This document shows, in pieces, positions 5,852 to 43,345 of a stretch of DNA of 44,352 bases. Below the pieces are notes generated by a model. It was given only the letters and a program-made list of their open reading frames with translations. It was not told where the DNA came from and searched no databases. The DNA is from Chromatiales bacterium (GTDB lineage Bacteria; Pseudomonadota; Gammaproteobacteria; RBG-16-57-12): positions 1 through 44,352 of the forward strand of contig JALSJH010000039.1 in NCBI GenBank assembly GCA_026989455.1. The letters run 5' to 3'. The position numbers were made by a program, and so were the translations under genes. The stretch's first letter is position 1; each line of letters begins with the position of its first letter.

Positions 5852-6733
5852 TTAACTGGGGCGTTCGCCCCAGTGGAGTTTTGCCCGAAGTATATCAAAA
5901 AAATCATACACTTCAGGATGTATTAGCCGAACCGGGTGTTCCGTTTTTTTGATCCGCAGTACATCGCCAATCTGCAAGCTGAGGCTGATCTGCCCGTCAC
6001 AGGTGATCAGCACTTCCGATTTTTCGTGGTCGCATACTTTAACCATAATAAGGCTATCGCCAGAGACCACCAGCGGGCGGTTACTCAATGTGTGCGGGCA
6101 GATCGGCACCAGCGCAATGGCATTTAACGAGGGGTGCAGTATCGGGCCACCACTCGAAAGCGCATAAGCGGTTGAGCCGGTTGGCGTTGCAATTACCAGC
6201 CCATCTGCCCGCATGATAGAGAGAAATTTTTGGTCAACAGAGCACTCCAGCTCAATCATCCGAGCAACGTGTGATTTGTGAATAACCACATCATTGAAAG
6301 CGTTGTTTTCGGAGAGTATCTCCCCGCCACGTTCAATGGTGGTGTGCAACAAAAAACGGCTCTCTTCAACAAATTGGCCACTCAAGACTTCATCAAGGGT
6401 CTCATCAATATGCTCTTTGGATACGTCGACCAGAAAGCCGAGACGGCCGAGGTTAACCCCTAAAATAGGCACATCAGATGCGTTGAGCGAGCGAGCCGCA
6501 TTGAGCAGCGTGCCATCTCCCCCCACCACGATAACCAGGTCACACTCTTTTGCGATGGTGGCGCGATCAACCGCTTCAAATTCAGTGCTGCTGATGTCTG
6601 GGGCAGAGCCTTGGTCGATCAATACGTGACAGCCACGGCTTAGCAGGTAGCTGCCAACGGCGATAAGGGTGTCGCCACCGTGTTGATCGTTATATTTACC
6701 AATCAGGCCGATGGTGTTGAAGGTGTTTTCCAC
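5852..6733 (-). CDS. nadK: NAD kinase
   Basis: ATP-dependent NAD kinase, which makes NADP+ from NAD+ in the cytosol. The GGDGT motif (VVVGGDGTLL) and the later NNAFND and ATPTGSTAY motifs are present, as is the family's GGPILHP segment. I place the start at a GTG (6733), preceded by AAGGGAG eight nt upstream, giving 293 aa and the usual short N-terminus before NTIGLIGKYND. A longer form from a TTG at 6784 has no ribosome site and adds 17 residues that do not look conserved. It heads the nadK-recN pair, divergent from the grpE heat-shock operon. Confidence 0.95.
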   Translation of the reverse strand: MENTFNTIGLIGKYNDQHGGDTLIAVGSYLLSRGCHVLIDQGSAPDISSTEFEAVDRATIAKECDLVIVVGGDGTLLNAARSLNASDVPILGVNLGRLGFLVDVSKEHIDETLDEVLSGQFVEESRFLLHTTIERGGEILSENNAFNDVVIHKSHVARMIELECSVDQKFLSIMRADGLVIATPTGSTAYALSSGGPILHPSLNAIALVPICPHTLSNRPLVVSGDSLIMVKVCDHEKSEVLITCDGQISLSLQIGDVLRIKKTEHPVRLIHPEVYDFFDILRAKLHWGERPS

Positions 6734-6885
6734 AGCTGGCCGCTCCCTTAATCTGAGGCTGTTTGTAAGTTCTAAAGCTGACAATGGAGATTAGCACCAT
6801 TGTGGTTCAGGTTAAATGGTTTCCGCTATTTTGCCTTTATCTCATTTAATGTGGGTGAAAAGTGTAGAAAAAATGGATAAAGGTG

Positions 6886-6913
6886 TTGAATTTGCAGAAT
6901 TTGCCCTTATATT
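6886..6913 (+). promoter_or_regulatory. Candidate heat-shock (sigma-32-like) promoter of grpE operon
   Basis: GTTGAAT (TTGAAT at 6886-6891) is followed after 12 nt by CCCTTATAT (6904-6912). This resembles the sigma-32 pattern CTTGAAA-N11 to 16-CCCCATNT. The same DNA can be read as a sigma-70 promoter, TTGAAT with TATATT (6908-6913) at a 16-nt spacing. A transcript from here would start near 6920 and carry the whole 161-bp repeat in its 5' leader. No hrcA gene or CIRCE-like inverted repeat is visible next to it. Confidence 0.5.
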
Positions 6914-6926
6914 TTCTGCAGCTTAA

Positions 6927-7087
6927 CCCGGATATTTCATGAGTTTGTACAAAAATCATGCAGGATATTGGTTTTACAGGGAAATTCCTGAAAGAGTTTC
7001 GTATCAGTGATTACGGACGATAGAGGGAGTATTTCCTGTAGAATCAATAGACAAGTGAGGTTGTGCATAACGTATAAATTATCCGGG
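6927..7087 (+). repeat. Family 2 repeat, 161 bp with terminal inverted repeats (copy 1)
   Basis: The ends are inverted repeats of about 25 bp: CCCGGATATTTCATGAGTTT at the left, and at the right a sequence whose complement reads CCCGGATAATTTATACGTTA. A second copy of exactly the same length lies inverted at 31836-31996. I count about 22 mismatches in 161 by eye, mostly transitions and no indels. There is no reading frame of note. It sits between the candidate promoter and grpE. I see no clear target-site duplication. Confidence 0.85.
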
Positions 7088-7145
7088 TCAGATTGTCAGA
7101 TGATACCGCTATGGTGTCGCACAAACACAATTGTCGGAGTCAAAC

Positions 7146-7775
7146 ATGTCAAACAAGAAAAAACATACGGATGAACAGCAGCCAGAAGAGAGTATTGAAG
7201 GCGTGGTTGAGTCATCTACAGATGCGGAGAGCGCTGGAGCTGAAATGGGCGATAGTGATGTTGCCGGTTTGCAGCAGGCGTTATTGGCAGCTGAAGAGAA
7301 GGCCAATAATAACTATGAGCTGGCATTGCGCACCAAAGCAGAGGCGGAAAACCTTAAACGCCGCGCCGATCAGGATGTTGAAAAAGCGCGTAAGTTTGCC
7401 TTAGACAAGTTTGTCGACTCATTGATTCCGGTGCTAGATAGTCTGGATATGAGCCTGCAAGCCGCAACGGGTAACGATGAAAGTGTTGTTAAATTGCGTG
7501 AAGGCAACGAGATGACTTTGAAGATGTTTCTGGATGCATTACAGAAAAACGGTGTTCAGCAGATTAACCCAGAAGGTGAAGCTTTTAACCCCCAGCTACA
7601 CGAAGCGATGAGTATGCAGGAGAGCACCGAGCATGCTCCTAATAGTGTGATGGTGGTTTTTCAAAAGGGTTACGCATTGAATGACCGGCTGATTCGCCCC
7701 GCTCGCGTCGTAGTCGCTAAAGCCGCCGTGGTTGCTGAAGATCCAGTGGGCGGAAAAATAGATGAGCAAGCGTAA
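7146..7775 (+). CDS. grpE: Nucleotide exchange factor GrpE
   Basis: A 209-aa co-chaperone that releases ADP from DnaK. It has an acidic, disordered N-terminus, a long coiled coil (residues about 45-110, with ALRTKAEAENLKRRAD) and the C-terminal beta-domain with FNPQLHEAMS and VVFQKGYALNDRLIRPARVVV. The start is the ATG at 7146, with CGGAGT six nt upstream. The in-frame TTG at 7131 lies before that site. It is the first gene of grpE-dnaK-dnaJ-dapB. The gene is commonly followed or preceded by hrcA or recN in relatives; here nadK-recN diverges from it. Confidence 0.95.
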   Translation: MSNKKKHTDEQQPEESIEGVVESSTDAESAGAEMGDSDVAGLQQALLAAEEKANNNYELALRTKAEAENLKRRADQDVEKARKFALDKFVDSLIPVLDSLDMSLQAATGNDESVVKLREGNEMTLKMFLDALQKNGVQQINPEGEAFNPQLHEAMSMQESTEHAPNSVMVVFQKGYALNDRLIRPARVVVAKAAVVAEDPVGGKIDEQA

Positions 7776-7886: not shown

Positions 7887-9824
7887 ATGGGAAAAATTAT
7901 CGGCATAGATTTGGGTACCACGAACTCATGTGTATCTGTAATGGAGGATGGCAAGCCTCGGGTTATTGAGAATGCAGAGGGTGATCGCACCACCCCTTCG
8001 GTCGTAGCCTATGTGGAAGGTGGCGAAGTGCTGGTTGGTCAGCCAGCAAAACGCCAAGCGGTCACTAATCCGAAAAACACACTGTTTGCGATTAAACGTC
8101 TGATTGGTCGTCGCTTTAAAGATAAAGAAGTGCAAAAAGATATCAAGATGGTTCCCTACTCCATCATCGAAGCCGACAACGGCGATGCGTGGGTTGAGGT
8201 GAATGGCAAGAAAATGTCGGCACCAGAAGTCTCTGCTCGCATCTTGATGAAGATGAAGAAAACCGCAGAAGATTATCTGGGTGAGGAGATTAAAGAGGCG
8301 GTGATTACAGTGCCTGCTTATTTTAATGATTCTCAGCGTCAGGCAACTAAGGATGCGGGTAAAATCGCCGGTCTGGAAGTTAAGCGTATTATCAACGAGC
8401 CAACGGCGGCGGCACTGGCTTATGGCATGGATAAGAAAGGCGGCGACCGCAAGATTGCAGTTTATGACTTGGGTGGCGGTACCTTCGATGTCTCAATTAT
8501 CGAAATTGCAGAGATTGAAGGCGAGCATCAGATTGAAGTGCTCTCAACCAATGGTGATACCTTTTTGGGTGGTGAAGATTTCGATTTGCGCCTAATTGAA
8601 TTCTTGGCTGAGGAGTTCAAGAAAGAGAGTGGCATCGATCTGCACAATGACCCTCTGGCATTGCAGCGCTTGAAAGAGGCGGCTGAGAAAGCAAAAATTG
8701 AGCTCTCATCTGCGCAGCAGACGGATGTTAACCTGCCTTACATCACAGCGGATGCTTCGGGTCCAAAACACCTGAATGTTAAGATCAGCCGCGCCAAGTA
8801 TGAAGGGCTGGTTGAGGAGTTGGTTGCACGCACCATTGAACCTTGCAAGGTTGCGTTGAAAGATGCTGGCCTCTCGGCTTCTGATATAGACGAGGTCATC
8901 TTGGTGGGTGGTCAAACCCGTATGCCTAAGGTTCAAGAAGCGGTACAAAACTTCTTCGGCAAAGAGCCACGTAAAGATGTCAACCCGGATGAAGCCGTGG
9001 CCGTGGGTGCCTCTATTCAGGGTGGTGTGCTGGGTGGTGAGGTTAAAGATGTATTGCTGCTGGATGTTACGCCACTCTCACTGGGCATCGAGACCATGGG
9101 TGGTGTCATGACCAAGCTGATCGAGAAGAACACAACGATTCCTACCAAGGCATCGCAGACCTTCTCTACTGCTGAAGATAACCAAACTGCGGTGACCGTG
9201 CATGTGTTGCAAGGTGAGCGTGAAATGGCATCAGCCAATAAATCATTAGGCCGTTTTGACTTGGGAGACATTGCACCAGCACCACGGGGTGTACCACAAG
9301 TTGAAGTCTCTCTGGACATTGATGCCAATGGTATCTTGAATGTTTCAGCCAAGGATAAAGCTACCGGAAAAGAGACCTCCATCGTGATTAAGGCCTCTTC
9401 GGGCCTCTCGGATGAAGAGGTTGAAAAGATGGTGCGTGATGCCGAAACACATGCCGAGGATGATAAAAAATTCCATGAGCTGGTAACCGTGCGTAACACC
9501 GCTGATCAGATGCTCCATGCCTGTAAAAAGTCCATGAGTGAGCTGGGTGAAGAGAAGATGGAGGCGGGCGAGAAAGAGAAGATCGACGCGGCCATTGCTG
9601 AGCTGGAAGAGGCGATGAAGGGCAATGAGAAAGAGGTTATTGAGGCCAAAACCACTGCACTTACCGAAGCTTCGGGTGAAATGATGCAGCGTGTTTATGC
9701 ACAGCAAGCCGGTGCAGAAGGTGGTGATCAGCCTGCGGCGAGTGGTGGTAGCCCAAATGCAAAAGCCAAGGATGACAATGTAGTTGATGCTGAGTTTGAA
9801 GAAGTTAAAGACGATAAAAAGTAA
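7887..9824 (+). CDS. dnaK: Molecular chaperone DnaK (Hsp70)
   Basis: A 645-aa ATP-dependent chaperone. The nucleotide-binding domain (residues 1-385) has [11 protein letters not shown] at the start, [26 protein letters not shown] and [14 protein letters not shown]. The linker [19 protein letters not shown] leads into the substrate-binding domain, and the helical lid ends in [12 protein letters not shown], the conserved C-terminal tail of bacterial DnaK. A good ribosome site (GGAGAGA) precedes the ATG. It is 111 nt downstream of grpE and 171 nt upstream of dnaJ. The latter gap contains a strong hairpin. Confidence 0.99.
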
Positions 9825-9995: not shown

Positions 9996-11973
<1,978 letters not shown>

Positions 11974-15486: not shown

Positions 15487-15624
15487 ATCTACTCAGCGTA
15501 TTCATCTTTTTCTTCAACTCTTGGTTACTTTCGTACTCAATCGGTCACATACTCCCTATATGCTCCCTCTCTCCGTACGAAAATGCCTCGACTTGAAGAA
15601 AAATCTAAACACGCTGAATAGATG
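15487..15624. repeat. Family 3 long imperfect palindrome (possible MITE)
   Basis: Two arms of about 50 bp (15487-15536 and 15575-15624) are imperfect inverted repeats. ATCTACTCAGCGTATTCATC at the left matches the complement of GATTTAGACACGC-type sequence at the right end, and both arms share TTTTTCTTCAA and TTTCGTAC. The centre is about 38 bp. With the hairpins at 15306-15376 it fills most of the 409-bp gap between convergent genes 13604-15265 and 15675-17900. No other copy was found in this window. Confidence 0.55.
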
Positions 15625-18651: not shown

Positions 18652-18706
18652 TTTTTTTTCTCCTATTTAAAATTATTTGTGGGTTTTCTTTTTAATTATC
18701 ACGCAT

Positions 18707-18782
18707 CCTGCGGATTTCGGAATAAATGAGAGAAATTTCCTCTCGGCCTAAATTCATCCTGACTTAATCAGAGCTTCCTTGA
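18707..18782. repeat. Family 1 palindromic repeat, half copy
   Basis: This single arm matches the reverse complement of the left arm of the copy at 24939-25098 (GATTTCGGAATAAATGAG, TTTCCTCTCGGCCTAAATTC, GACTTAATCAGAGCTTCC). It lies in the 5' region of the small lipoprotein and downstream of the FecR-barrel gene. Confidence 0.75.
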
Positions 18783-24838: not shown

Positions 24839-24938
24839 CAGTGGCTACTCTATTCTCGGATAGCCAACTAGGGTGTTTTATAAATCTGAGTCAGGATAAA
24901 TATCAAGCAAGACGCTTTGTTGTTAATATTAAGTTAAA

Positions 24939-25098
24939 GAAGCACTGATTAAGCTTGGATGAATTTAGGCTGAGAGGAAATTGTTCTCATTTGTTCCGAA
25001 ATGCGCAGTAATAGTCGCTCTATTGGTGCGATTTTCGGGATAAATGAGGGCGATTTCAGCCAGCATAAAAACATTCATGACTTGATCAGAGCTTTCTT
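24939..25098. repeat. Family 1 palindromic repeat, full copy
   Basis: About 160 bp. The left end GAAGCACTGATTAAGCTTGG is the imperfect inverse of the right end (CTTGATCAGAGCTTTC), and the arms continue as an imperfect palindrome of about 65-70 bp around a short centre (near 25010-25030). It aligns along its whole length with 43184-43345. Together with the degraded copy at 24785 it fills most of the 475-bp gap between the divergent cyclase and Crp-type genes. No reading frame is present. Confidence 0.8.
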
Positions 25099-31601: not shown

Positions 31602-31844
31602 GTGACGGATAGTGTACCTCATAAGAGTAAAGGCGTAATAGTAGAACCGAGTCCACTCAATCACATTAAGTTGGAATTGGGTCTGGTGCTCTGTGTCGCG
31701 GTATTGGTTTTACTGCTTTCATCATCGTTCAGCGAGTCGTTGATTGTGCAGTTGATGATCCTCCTTGGTTATGGTGTGGTTGCGAGTGGCTGGTTGATAT
31801 GGCGTATTCGCAAGACAGTGCAGGGGCTGACGGAACCCGAATAA
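31602..31844 (+). CDS. Small two-TM membrane protein, unknown function
   Basis: An 80-aa protein starting at GTG 31602. Residues about 25-65 are two hydrophobic segments (LGLVLCVAVLVLLLSSSF and LIVQLMILLGYGVVASGWL), and the ends are polar. No family is recognised with confidence. The last codons and the stop lie inside the 161-bp repeat that starts at 31836, so the original C-terminus may have been altered by it. Possibly real, judging by its membrane pattern and tight fit between yhbY and rlmE. Confidence 0.55.
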   Translation: MTDSVPHKSKGVIVEPSPLNHIKLELGLVLCVAVLVLLLSSSFSESLIVQLMILLGYGVVASGWLIWRIRKTVQGLTEPE

Positions 31845-31996
31845 TTCATAAGTTATGCACAATCTCACTTGTCTATTGATTCCACAGGAAATACTCTCCC
31901 CATCGCCCGTAATCACTGATACGGATATTTTTCGGGAATTTCCCTATGAAACCAATACCCTGCGTGATCTTTGCGCAAACTTATGAAATATCCGGG
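31836..31996 (-). repeat. Family 2 repeat, 161 bp with terminal inverted repeats (copy 2, inverted)
   Basis: The reverse complement of this stretch aligns without gaps with 6927-7087, with about 22 mismatches by eye. The ends are inverted repeats (CCCGAATAATTCATAAGTTA at the left; the complement of the right end reads CCCGGATATTTCATAAGTTT). It ends next to GGGGGAG (31994-32000), which serves as the ribosome site of rlmE, and supplies the stop codon of the upstream gene. Confidence 0.85.
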
Positions 31997-32007
31997 GGAG
32001 AAGAGTG

Positions 32008-32649
32008 ATGGCAAAGATCACAACCAACAAGAAAATGGCTGCCAGTAGTCGCCGCTGGCTAGAAGAGCACCTGAATGATGAGTTTGTGCTGCTAGCCAAA
32101 AGAGAGGGTTACCGCTCTAGGGCGGTCTATAAGCTGCTTGAGATTGATGATAAGGATAAATTGCTGCGGCCAGGGTTGACGGTGGTTGACCTGGGCGCTG
32201 CTCCCGGTGGCTGGTCGCAGGTTGCACGGCGTCGCCTTGGTAAGCGTGGCCGGGTACTGGCGCTCGATATTCTGGAGATGGATTCGCTGGCGGGGGTTGA
32301 GTTTATACAAGGCGACTTTCGTGAGGATGAAGCGATTAACGGCTTGATGGAAATGCTGGGGGATTCGACTGTAGACCTTGTAATGTCGGATATGGCCCCC
32401 AATATGTCTGGGGTGCGTGATATGGATAAGACGCGAGCCATGTATCTGGTCGAGCTGGCGTTTGATCTTTCACGGCAGATTTTGCGCCCGGGTGGTGATC
32501 TGCTCATGAAGGTGTTTCAAGGGCCAGGGTACGATCAATTGATAAAAGAGTTGCGCCACAGTTTTGACAAAGTGGTCACCCGAAAACCAAAGGCTTCTAG
32601 GGATAGATCATCAGAGGTCTATTTATTGGCTCGTGGCTTTAGGTTATAG
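32008..32649 (+). CDS. rlmE: 23S rRNA 2'-O-ribose U2552 methyltransferase RlmE (RrmJ/FtsJ)
   Basis: A 213-aa SAM-dependent methyltransferase of late 50S assembly. The Lys-Asp-Lys-Glu tetrad is visible: [30 protein letters not shown] and [11 protein letters not shown]. The SAM motif is [15 protein letters not shown]. The start is GTG (32005) or the adjacent ATG (32008). Both follow the GGGGGAG that straddles the end of the 161-bp repeat. In E. coli rlmE and ftsH form one heat-shock operon; here 265 bp separate them. Confidence 0.96.
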
Positions 32650-32914: not shown

Positions 32915-34864
<1,950 letters not shown>

Positions 34865-43183: not shown

Positions 43184-43345
43184 GGAGTCTCTGGTTAAGT
43201 CTGGATGGATTTAGGTTGAGAGTGAGTCGTTCGTTTGTTCCGAAATGCGCAGCACCCTTCGTTCTTATAGGTGCATTTTTCGGGATAAATAAGGGCAGCT
43301 TCAGCCAACAGAAAACATTCATGATTTGATCAGAGCTTCCTTGAT
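43184..43345. repeat. Family 1 palindromic repeat, full copy inside the nuo operon
   Basis: It aligns along its length with 24939-25098 (GATGGATTTAGG, TTTGTTCCGAAATGCGCAG, TTTTTCGGGATAAATAAGGGC, CATTCATGATTTGATCAGAG). The ends are inverted repeats. It starts immediately after the nuoF stop and would be transcribed as a long hairpin between nuoF and nuoG. Confidence 0.8.

Follow-up and report, generated by a model that had tools for sequence, protein, structure and literature searches.

Hairpin elements in front of two bacterial heat-shock operons are very probably MITEs with IS1380-type ends

In the window, which is the whole 44,352-nucleotide stretch that was analysed (contig JALSJH010000039.1 of a Chromatiales bacterium, assembly GCA_026989455.1), two copies of a 161-bp inverted-repeat element lie in front of heat-shock operons. 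This position leads to the question whether the element is an mRNA leader such as a thermosensor or a MITE inserted there by chance, both of which had been proposed in a first-pass annotation. The features that bear on the question are the following.

6927 to 7087, forward strand: copy 1 of the putative MITE, 161 bp, in the grpE leader; its strongly folding strand is sense
31836 to 31996, reverse strand: copy 2 of the putative MITE, 161 bp, 8 bp before the called rlmE start; its strongly folding strand is antisense to rlmE
6923 to 6926, no strand: left target-site duplication of copy 1, TTAA
7088 to 7091, no strand: right target-site duplication of copy 1, TCAG, diverged from TTAA; YTAR consensus
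31832 to 31835, no strand: left target-site duplication of copy 2, GGAA; the empty sites read GACGGAAAAGAGTAATGG in sister species G002
31997 to 32000, no strand: right target-site duplication of copy 2, GGAG, within the region now serving as the rlmE Shine-Dalgarno sequence
6886 to 6912, forward strand: sigma-32-like promoter box of grpE, with TTGAA at 6886-6890 and CCCTTATAT at 6904-6912
7146 to 7775, forward strand: grpE (NCBIfam NF010748), followed by dnaK at 7887-9824 (NF001413) and dnaJ at 9996-11114 (NF008035)
5852 to 6784, reverse strand: nadK (NCBIfam NF002306), divergent from grpE
32008 to 32649, forward strand: rlmE (NCBIfam NF008390), followed by ftsH at 32918-34864 (NF008004)

A repeat search of the window paired positions 6927-7088 with 31835-31996 as an inverted repeat of 162 nt (86%), and the two 161-bp copies align without gaps at 139/161 identical positions, confirming the equal length and the identity of about 86% that had been estimated by eye. 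The alignment contains 22 differences, 19 of which are transitions, as the annotation had remarked. Its matching 25-bp terminal inverted repeats were upheld in part: inverted repeats are present (CCCGGATATTTCATRA and CCCGRATAATTCATAA), but they are imperfect and belong to a single long hairpin that comprises nearly the whole element. Compared with shuffled sequences, the self-folds of the two window copies have z values of -9.7 and -5.0. The NCBIfam matches corroborate that the copies adjoin grpE and rlmE-ftsH in opposite orientations. All three species compared have kept the sigma-32-like box ahead of grpE, so copy 1 indeed sits directly after it, as had been suggested; GTTGAATTTG-A-AATTTGCCCTTATAT is kept in the two element-free sister species, and on sequence comparison the box evidently predates the insertion of the element. 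As a sigma-70-like match the grpE promoter box is weak and no better than chance.

The annotation had proposed to count the copies in the full genome (2.37 Mb in 116 contigs), and there are not two but at least 25 whole or fragmentary copies (E < 0.01), the longest of the 25 showing 80-100% identity. End-like sites with up to two mismatches number 62 genome-wide, compared with 1 for a backward control pattern, and one such site is found right at the end of contig C10. A third full copy (G000:C45:5286-5448; L009, L247) is located between an ftsX-like gene and rpoH, 20 bp before the latter. With a 169-bp query, matches were obtained in 3/3 genomes of the genus and in 0/53 other relatives searched. 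Both sister species (G001 and G002) lack the element at grpE, rlmE, and rpoH and have clean empty sites there, that at grpE in G002 reading GCAGC-ATAG-TTC-GTCAG. At grpE and rlmE the occupied sites exceed the empty ones in length by exactly 165 bp, corresponding to 161 + 4, and the 4-bp target duplications are TTAA/TCAG at grpE, GGAA/GGAG at rlmE, and TTAT/TTAT at rpoH. The flanks of 101 elements from all sources follow the consensus YTAR on both sides, and the 4-bp duplications are identical in 52/101, compared with an expectation of 18.6% for flanks taken from unrelated elements.

Scattered copies, 4-bp target duplications, and insertions confined to one lineage, with the corresponding sites empty in the sister species, are typical of a transposable element and bear out the MITE reading. 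The element is short, multicopy, and non-coding, its termini are inverted repeats, targets are duplicated on insertion, and related genomes have unoccupied sites; ends common to an autonomous transposon were found only via IS1380-family elements in other genomes. It is therefore very likely that the two copies belong to a family of non-autonomous MITEs with a YTAR target, the most likely mover being an IS1380 transposase. The proposed mechanism would start from a non-coding element of about 161 bp that would fold from end to end into a single long hairpin. It would insert mostly between genes, duplicating a 4-bp target (consensus YTAR), when an IS1380-family transposase (bacterial relatives of piggyBac) acts in trans on its ends CCCGRATAWTTCATRA; this transposase would now be missing from the genome.

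Three IS1380-family transposase elements from other genomes have ends of this kind. The first (L218, 1574 bp) has a CTAG duplication and the ends CCTGGATATTTCATAA and CCTGAATATTTCACGG, the second (L219, 1688 bp) has a CTAG duplication and CCTGAATATTGCATAA at both ends, and the third (L217, 1630 bp) has TTAG/CTAG flanks and the more diverged ends CCCCAATATTGCACGA and CCAGAATATTGCACGA. Each of the three encodes a PF13701 transposase, and the L217 and L218 proteins belong to the IS1380 family by NCBIfam (NF033539). IS1380 fragments of Thiomicrospira microaerophila (L223/L233/L241) have the ends CCCGGATATTTCATAAA and CCCGAATATTTCATAAA, identical to those of the MITE over 16 bases, and the targets of the IS1380 elements are CTAG or YTAR. 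The insertion sequences thus resemble the MITE in their ends (CCYGRATATTKCATAA, 16/16 in T. microaerophila) and in the YTAR/CTAG duplication; they differ in being 1.57-1.69 kb long with a transposase gene, whereas the MITE of about 161 bp is non-coding and shares only the ends. Because the same ends and YTAR/CTAG duplications occur in IS1380 elements elsewhere, an IS1380-family transposase probably moved the element in trans. IS1380 transposases have been used as outgroup of piggyBac, which targets TTAA and variants such as CTAA, TCAA, and TTAG (PMC10813416).

No open reading frame recurs between the ends in the collected loci, so that no autonomous copy was found there, and longer stretches around the Desulfoluna copies contained only further MITEs and no autonomous element. 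An IS1380-type transposase was not detected in this genome or in G001. The transposase matches in G002 have ends that differ from those of the MITE, the main match being without such ends. The copies in this genome are therefore likely to be orphans that were mobilised in the past or by a transposase of outside origin. Three observations count against the preferred explanation: no mover with these ends is seen in this genome, G001, or G002, where the copies are, 3/11 near-full-length copies and a fragment at an Hsp20 gene lie near heat-shock genes, and the fold is more conserved than the interior of a passive MITE needs to be.

The conservation of the fold was assessed by covariation, as the annotation had recommended. 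In 38 beta/gamma copies, 34/52 consensus pairs show double compensatory changes, with 264 compensatory cells compared with 84 in shuffles and at most 51 in slid controls, and the covariation score of 0.45 exceeds that of shuffles (0.22) and of slid structures (no more than 0.14); in these counts, as in the variant counts below, the copies share ancestry and independent events are far fewer than the cells counted. When elements were oriented by sequence alignment alone, the same strand folded better in 48/48 beta/gamma elements, by about 17-20 kcal/mol. The mean fold energies of the two strands are -61.7 and -41.2 kcal/mol in the genus and -78.9 and -62.4 kcal/mol elsewhere. Among variants common to several copies, G-U exceeds A-C by 195:13, and the shared variants still give 69:9 when the predicted structure of the opposite strand is used. 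Private variants, seen in a single copy, yielded 14:20, or 26:24 when grouped differently. In the deltaproteobacterial set no clear preference between G-U and A-C emerged. The annotation had named scattered copies, an autonomous transposon with the same termini, and the lack of a conserved fold as findings that would speak against a leader. The first was found, the second was found in other genomes, and the fold turned out to be strongly conserved.

Because the G-U excess appears in shared but not in private variants, pairing seems to matter during spread while resident copies drift neutrally, which speaks against the resident copies having a function for the host. The pattern suggests a fold that was selected while the element spread, followed by neutral decay of the copies in residence, and the simplest reading is that single-stranded pairing, in RNA or in one DNA strand, matters in spreading lineages. 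It points to the element's own propagation and not to regulation of grpE or rlmE-ftsH. A tentative addition to the MITE reading, which we regard as possible, is that the single-stranded form of the fold, and not the ends alone, is needed for spread or tolerance. The compensatory pairs, the uniformly favoured strand, and the contrast between shared and private variants speak for it, but the common ancestry of the copies lowers the number of independent events, and DDE transposition is not known to require folding of this kind. Furthermore, no Rfam family matched the element at gathering score, and none did at E < 1 in a further search. In a more far-reaching and rather unlikely version, an ancient hairpin would parasitise IS1380 transposases in Beta- and Gammaproteobacteria and Desulfobacterota; its spread would need one folded strand, so that pairs would be kept in propagating lineages (G-U allowed, A-C not) while resident copies decay neutrally. 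The strand-specific covariation makes it possible to test for selection on bacterial MITE hairpins in single-stranded form.

That the element is a heat-shock leader or RNA thermosensor recruited before chaperone and protease operons is highly improbable. The idea draws on the copies before grpE-dnaK-dnaJ, rlmE-ftsH, and rpoH (the 3 of 11 near-full-length ones mentioned above), on the element fragment 254 bp before an Hsp20-like (small heat-shock-protein) gene, and on the position of copy 1 right behind the conserved sigma-32-like box. Yet the absence of the element at grpE, rlmE, and rpoH in the two sister species means that its position before orthologous genes is not conserved, and the strand that folds strongly runs sense to grpE but antisense to rlmE. 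Folding at 25-48 °C revealed no effect of the element on predicted exposure of the grpE ribosome-binding site: Shine-Dalgarno exposure with and without the element was 0.26 and 0.29 at 25 °C, 0.41 and 0.43 at 37 °C, and 0.61 and 0.60 at 48 °C. Between co-directional genes, 18 elements are sense and 20 antisense (n = 38, across genomes), giving no orientation bias relative to neighbouring genes, and mutations private to one copy do not preferentially preserve pairing.

Most other downstream genes are not related to heat shock either. In this genome about 29 of 33 upstream-positioned neighbour genes are unrelated to it, as are 10/10 genes within 300 bp of an element in the sister species; those named by eye include leuA-like, nitrite and nitrate enzyme, purD, gltB, rimO, and asparagine synthase genes, among others. 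Since two of the four heat-shock cases are those that prompted the question and the remaining neighbours are unrelated, the enrichment upstream of stress genes for which the annotation had suggested a search is not established. Of its two interpretations, the results thus favour the MITE and give no support to the thermosensor. Most probably the element landed by chance before the two heat-shock operons and does not act as a temperature sensor. Its location before grpE, rlmE, and rpoH probably serves no systematic regulatory end, although individual copies may influence the transcripts concerned.

The whole-element hairpin, the 26-bp palindromic minimal forms described below, the intergenic placement, and the one favoured strand would also fit a pair of REPIN-like hairpins mobilised by a RAYT (Y1 HUH) transposase. 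This reading is nevertheless very unlikely, as direct 4-bp target duplications are present here and the empty sites are without them, whereas Y1 transposition is not known to produce direct target duplications, and IS1380 elements have the same ends and target. Derivation from the IS701 family, suggested by its likewise exact 4-bp duplications (PMC2266710) and by IS701-type transposases in one element-rich genome (G056), is scarcely credible, because the copies examined there have the wrong ends (AATACTACTACG..., TTAATCCTACAACGACA) and the published end consensus ---YACT-Y (PMC2266710) does not fit CCCGGATATT.

The MITE family with IS1380-type ends extends well beyond the genus. At least 93 GTDB genome stretches matched a 20-base pattern of the ends CCCGRATAWTTCATRA, of which about 2 are expected by chance according to our estimate. 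Among the matches listed, the classes are Beta- and Gammaproteobacteria and Desulfobacterota, and the hosts are Nitrosomonas, Nitrosospira, Thiobacillus, Sulfuricella, Sulfuriferula, Ectothiorhodospiraceae, Thiomicrospira, Desulfobacteraceae, and others. A search of viral contigs with the end pattern gave no match, and no plasmid matched copy 1 or covered 80% of a 30-base end query. Two complete deltaproteobacterial chromosomes contain 267 and 254 ends and 0 control matches. In genomes such as bin617 and bin435 there are more than 250 element ends each, so that the family amounts to a large unannotated share of the intergenic DNA in bacteria of the sulfur and nitrogen cycles.

The same ends bound elements of 26, about 49, 160-163, 178-190, and up to 351 bp in many proteobacterial genomes, with length clusters at 26 bp, at 160-163 bp (beta/gamma), and at 178-190 bp (Desulfobacterota). 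Minimal 26-bp forms (CCCGGATATTTCATGAATTATCCGGG) and one 49-bp form, with YTAA-type duplications on either side, were found at L122, L126, L127, L143, L145, L150, L156, and L160. The 26-bp forms would match the leftover expected of a deletion between internal TTCATGAATT repeats, and both short forms are probably internal deletions of the long element. Desulfoluna limicola (L200-L211) harbours a subfamily of its own, 171-277 bp long, in which the ends are the same but the interior is unrelated and contains CTCGCCCGAAGGGTGAG.

Other intergenic repeats differ from this family. ERIC/IRU elements of enterobacteria are intergenic palindromes of about 127 bp in many species; they differ from the present element in sequence. 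The Correia elements (CREE/NEMIS) of Neisseria are 100-160 bp long, occur in many intergenic copies, and form a hairpin in transcripts, but they have different ends and TA duplications, whereas the present element duplicates YTAR, has ends of the IS1380 type, and occurs in several classes. Correia elements belong to the class of non-coding inverted-repeat elements (PMC4133298). Tn3-derived TIMEs are likewise non-autonomous and moved in trans via matching ends (PMC4133298), and differ in their Tn3-type 38-bp ends, 5-6-bp duplications, and mostly single copies. The piggyBac MITEs of animals are similar in their TTAA-type 4-bp target (PMC10813416), ends starting with CCC, and an IS1380-related transposase; they are eukaryotic, and the homology exists only at the level of the transposase superfamily. 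Literature searches, with ISfinder and subscription journals outside their scope, returned no paper with the end sequence and none on comparable IS1380-derived MITEs; relative to the searchable literature the family, its IS1380 link, and the strand-specific covariation are new. A tempting heat-shock story is thereby replaced by a testable MITE family with a nameable likely mover, IS1380.

The window contains further repeats. A second inverted-repeat element at 15487-15623 has 34-nt arms that are 82% complementary, and relatives of it are found between or beside MITE ends in L042 and L061, apparently as nested insertions or a chimeric element. Another dispersed repeat with cores such as ATTCATGACTTGATCAGAGCTTCCTT occurs in direct and inverted orientation at 2200-2278, 18703-18780, 24936-25098, and 43231-43342, and one repeat of this type lies near an element end in L038. 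Finally, a 167-bp direct repeat (127-293 and 1854-2020; 94% identical, 1727 bp apart) is situated at or inside the ends of a 627-residue reverse-strand open reading frame (285-2168).
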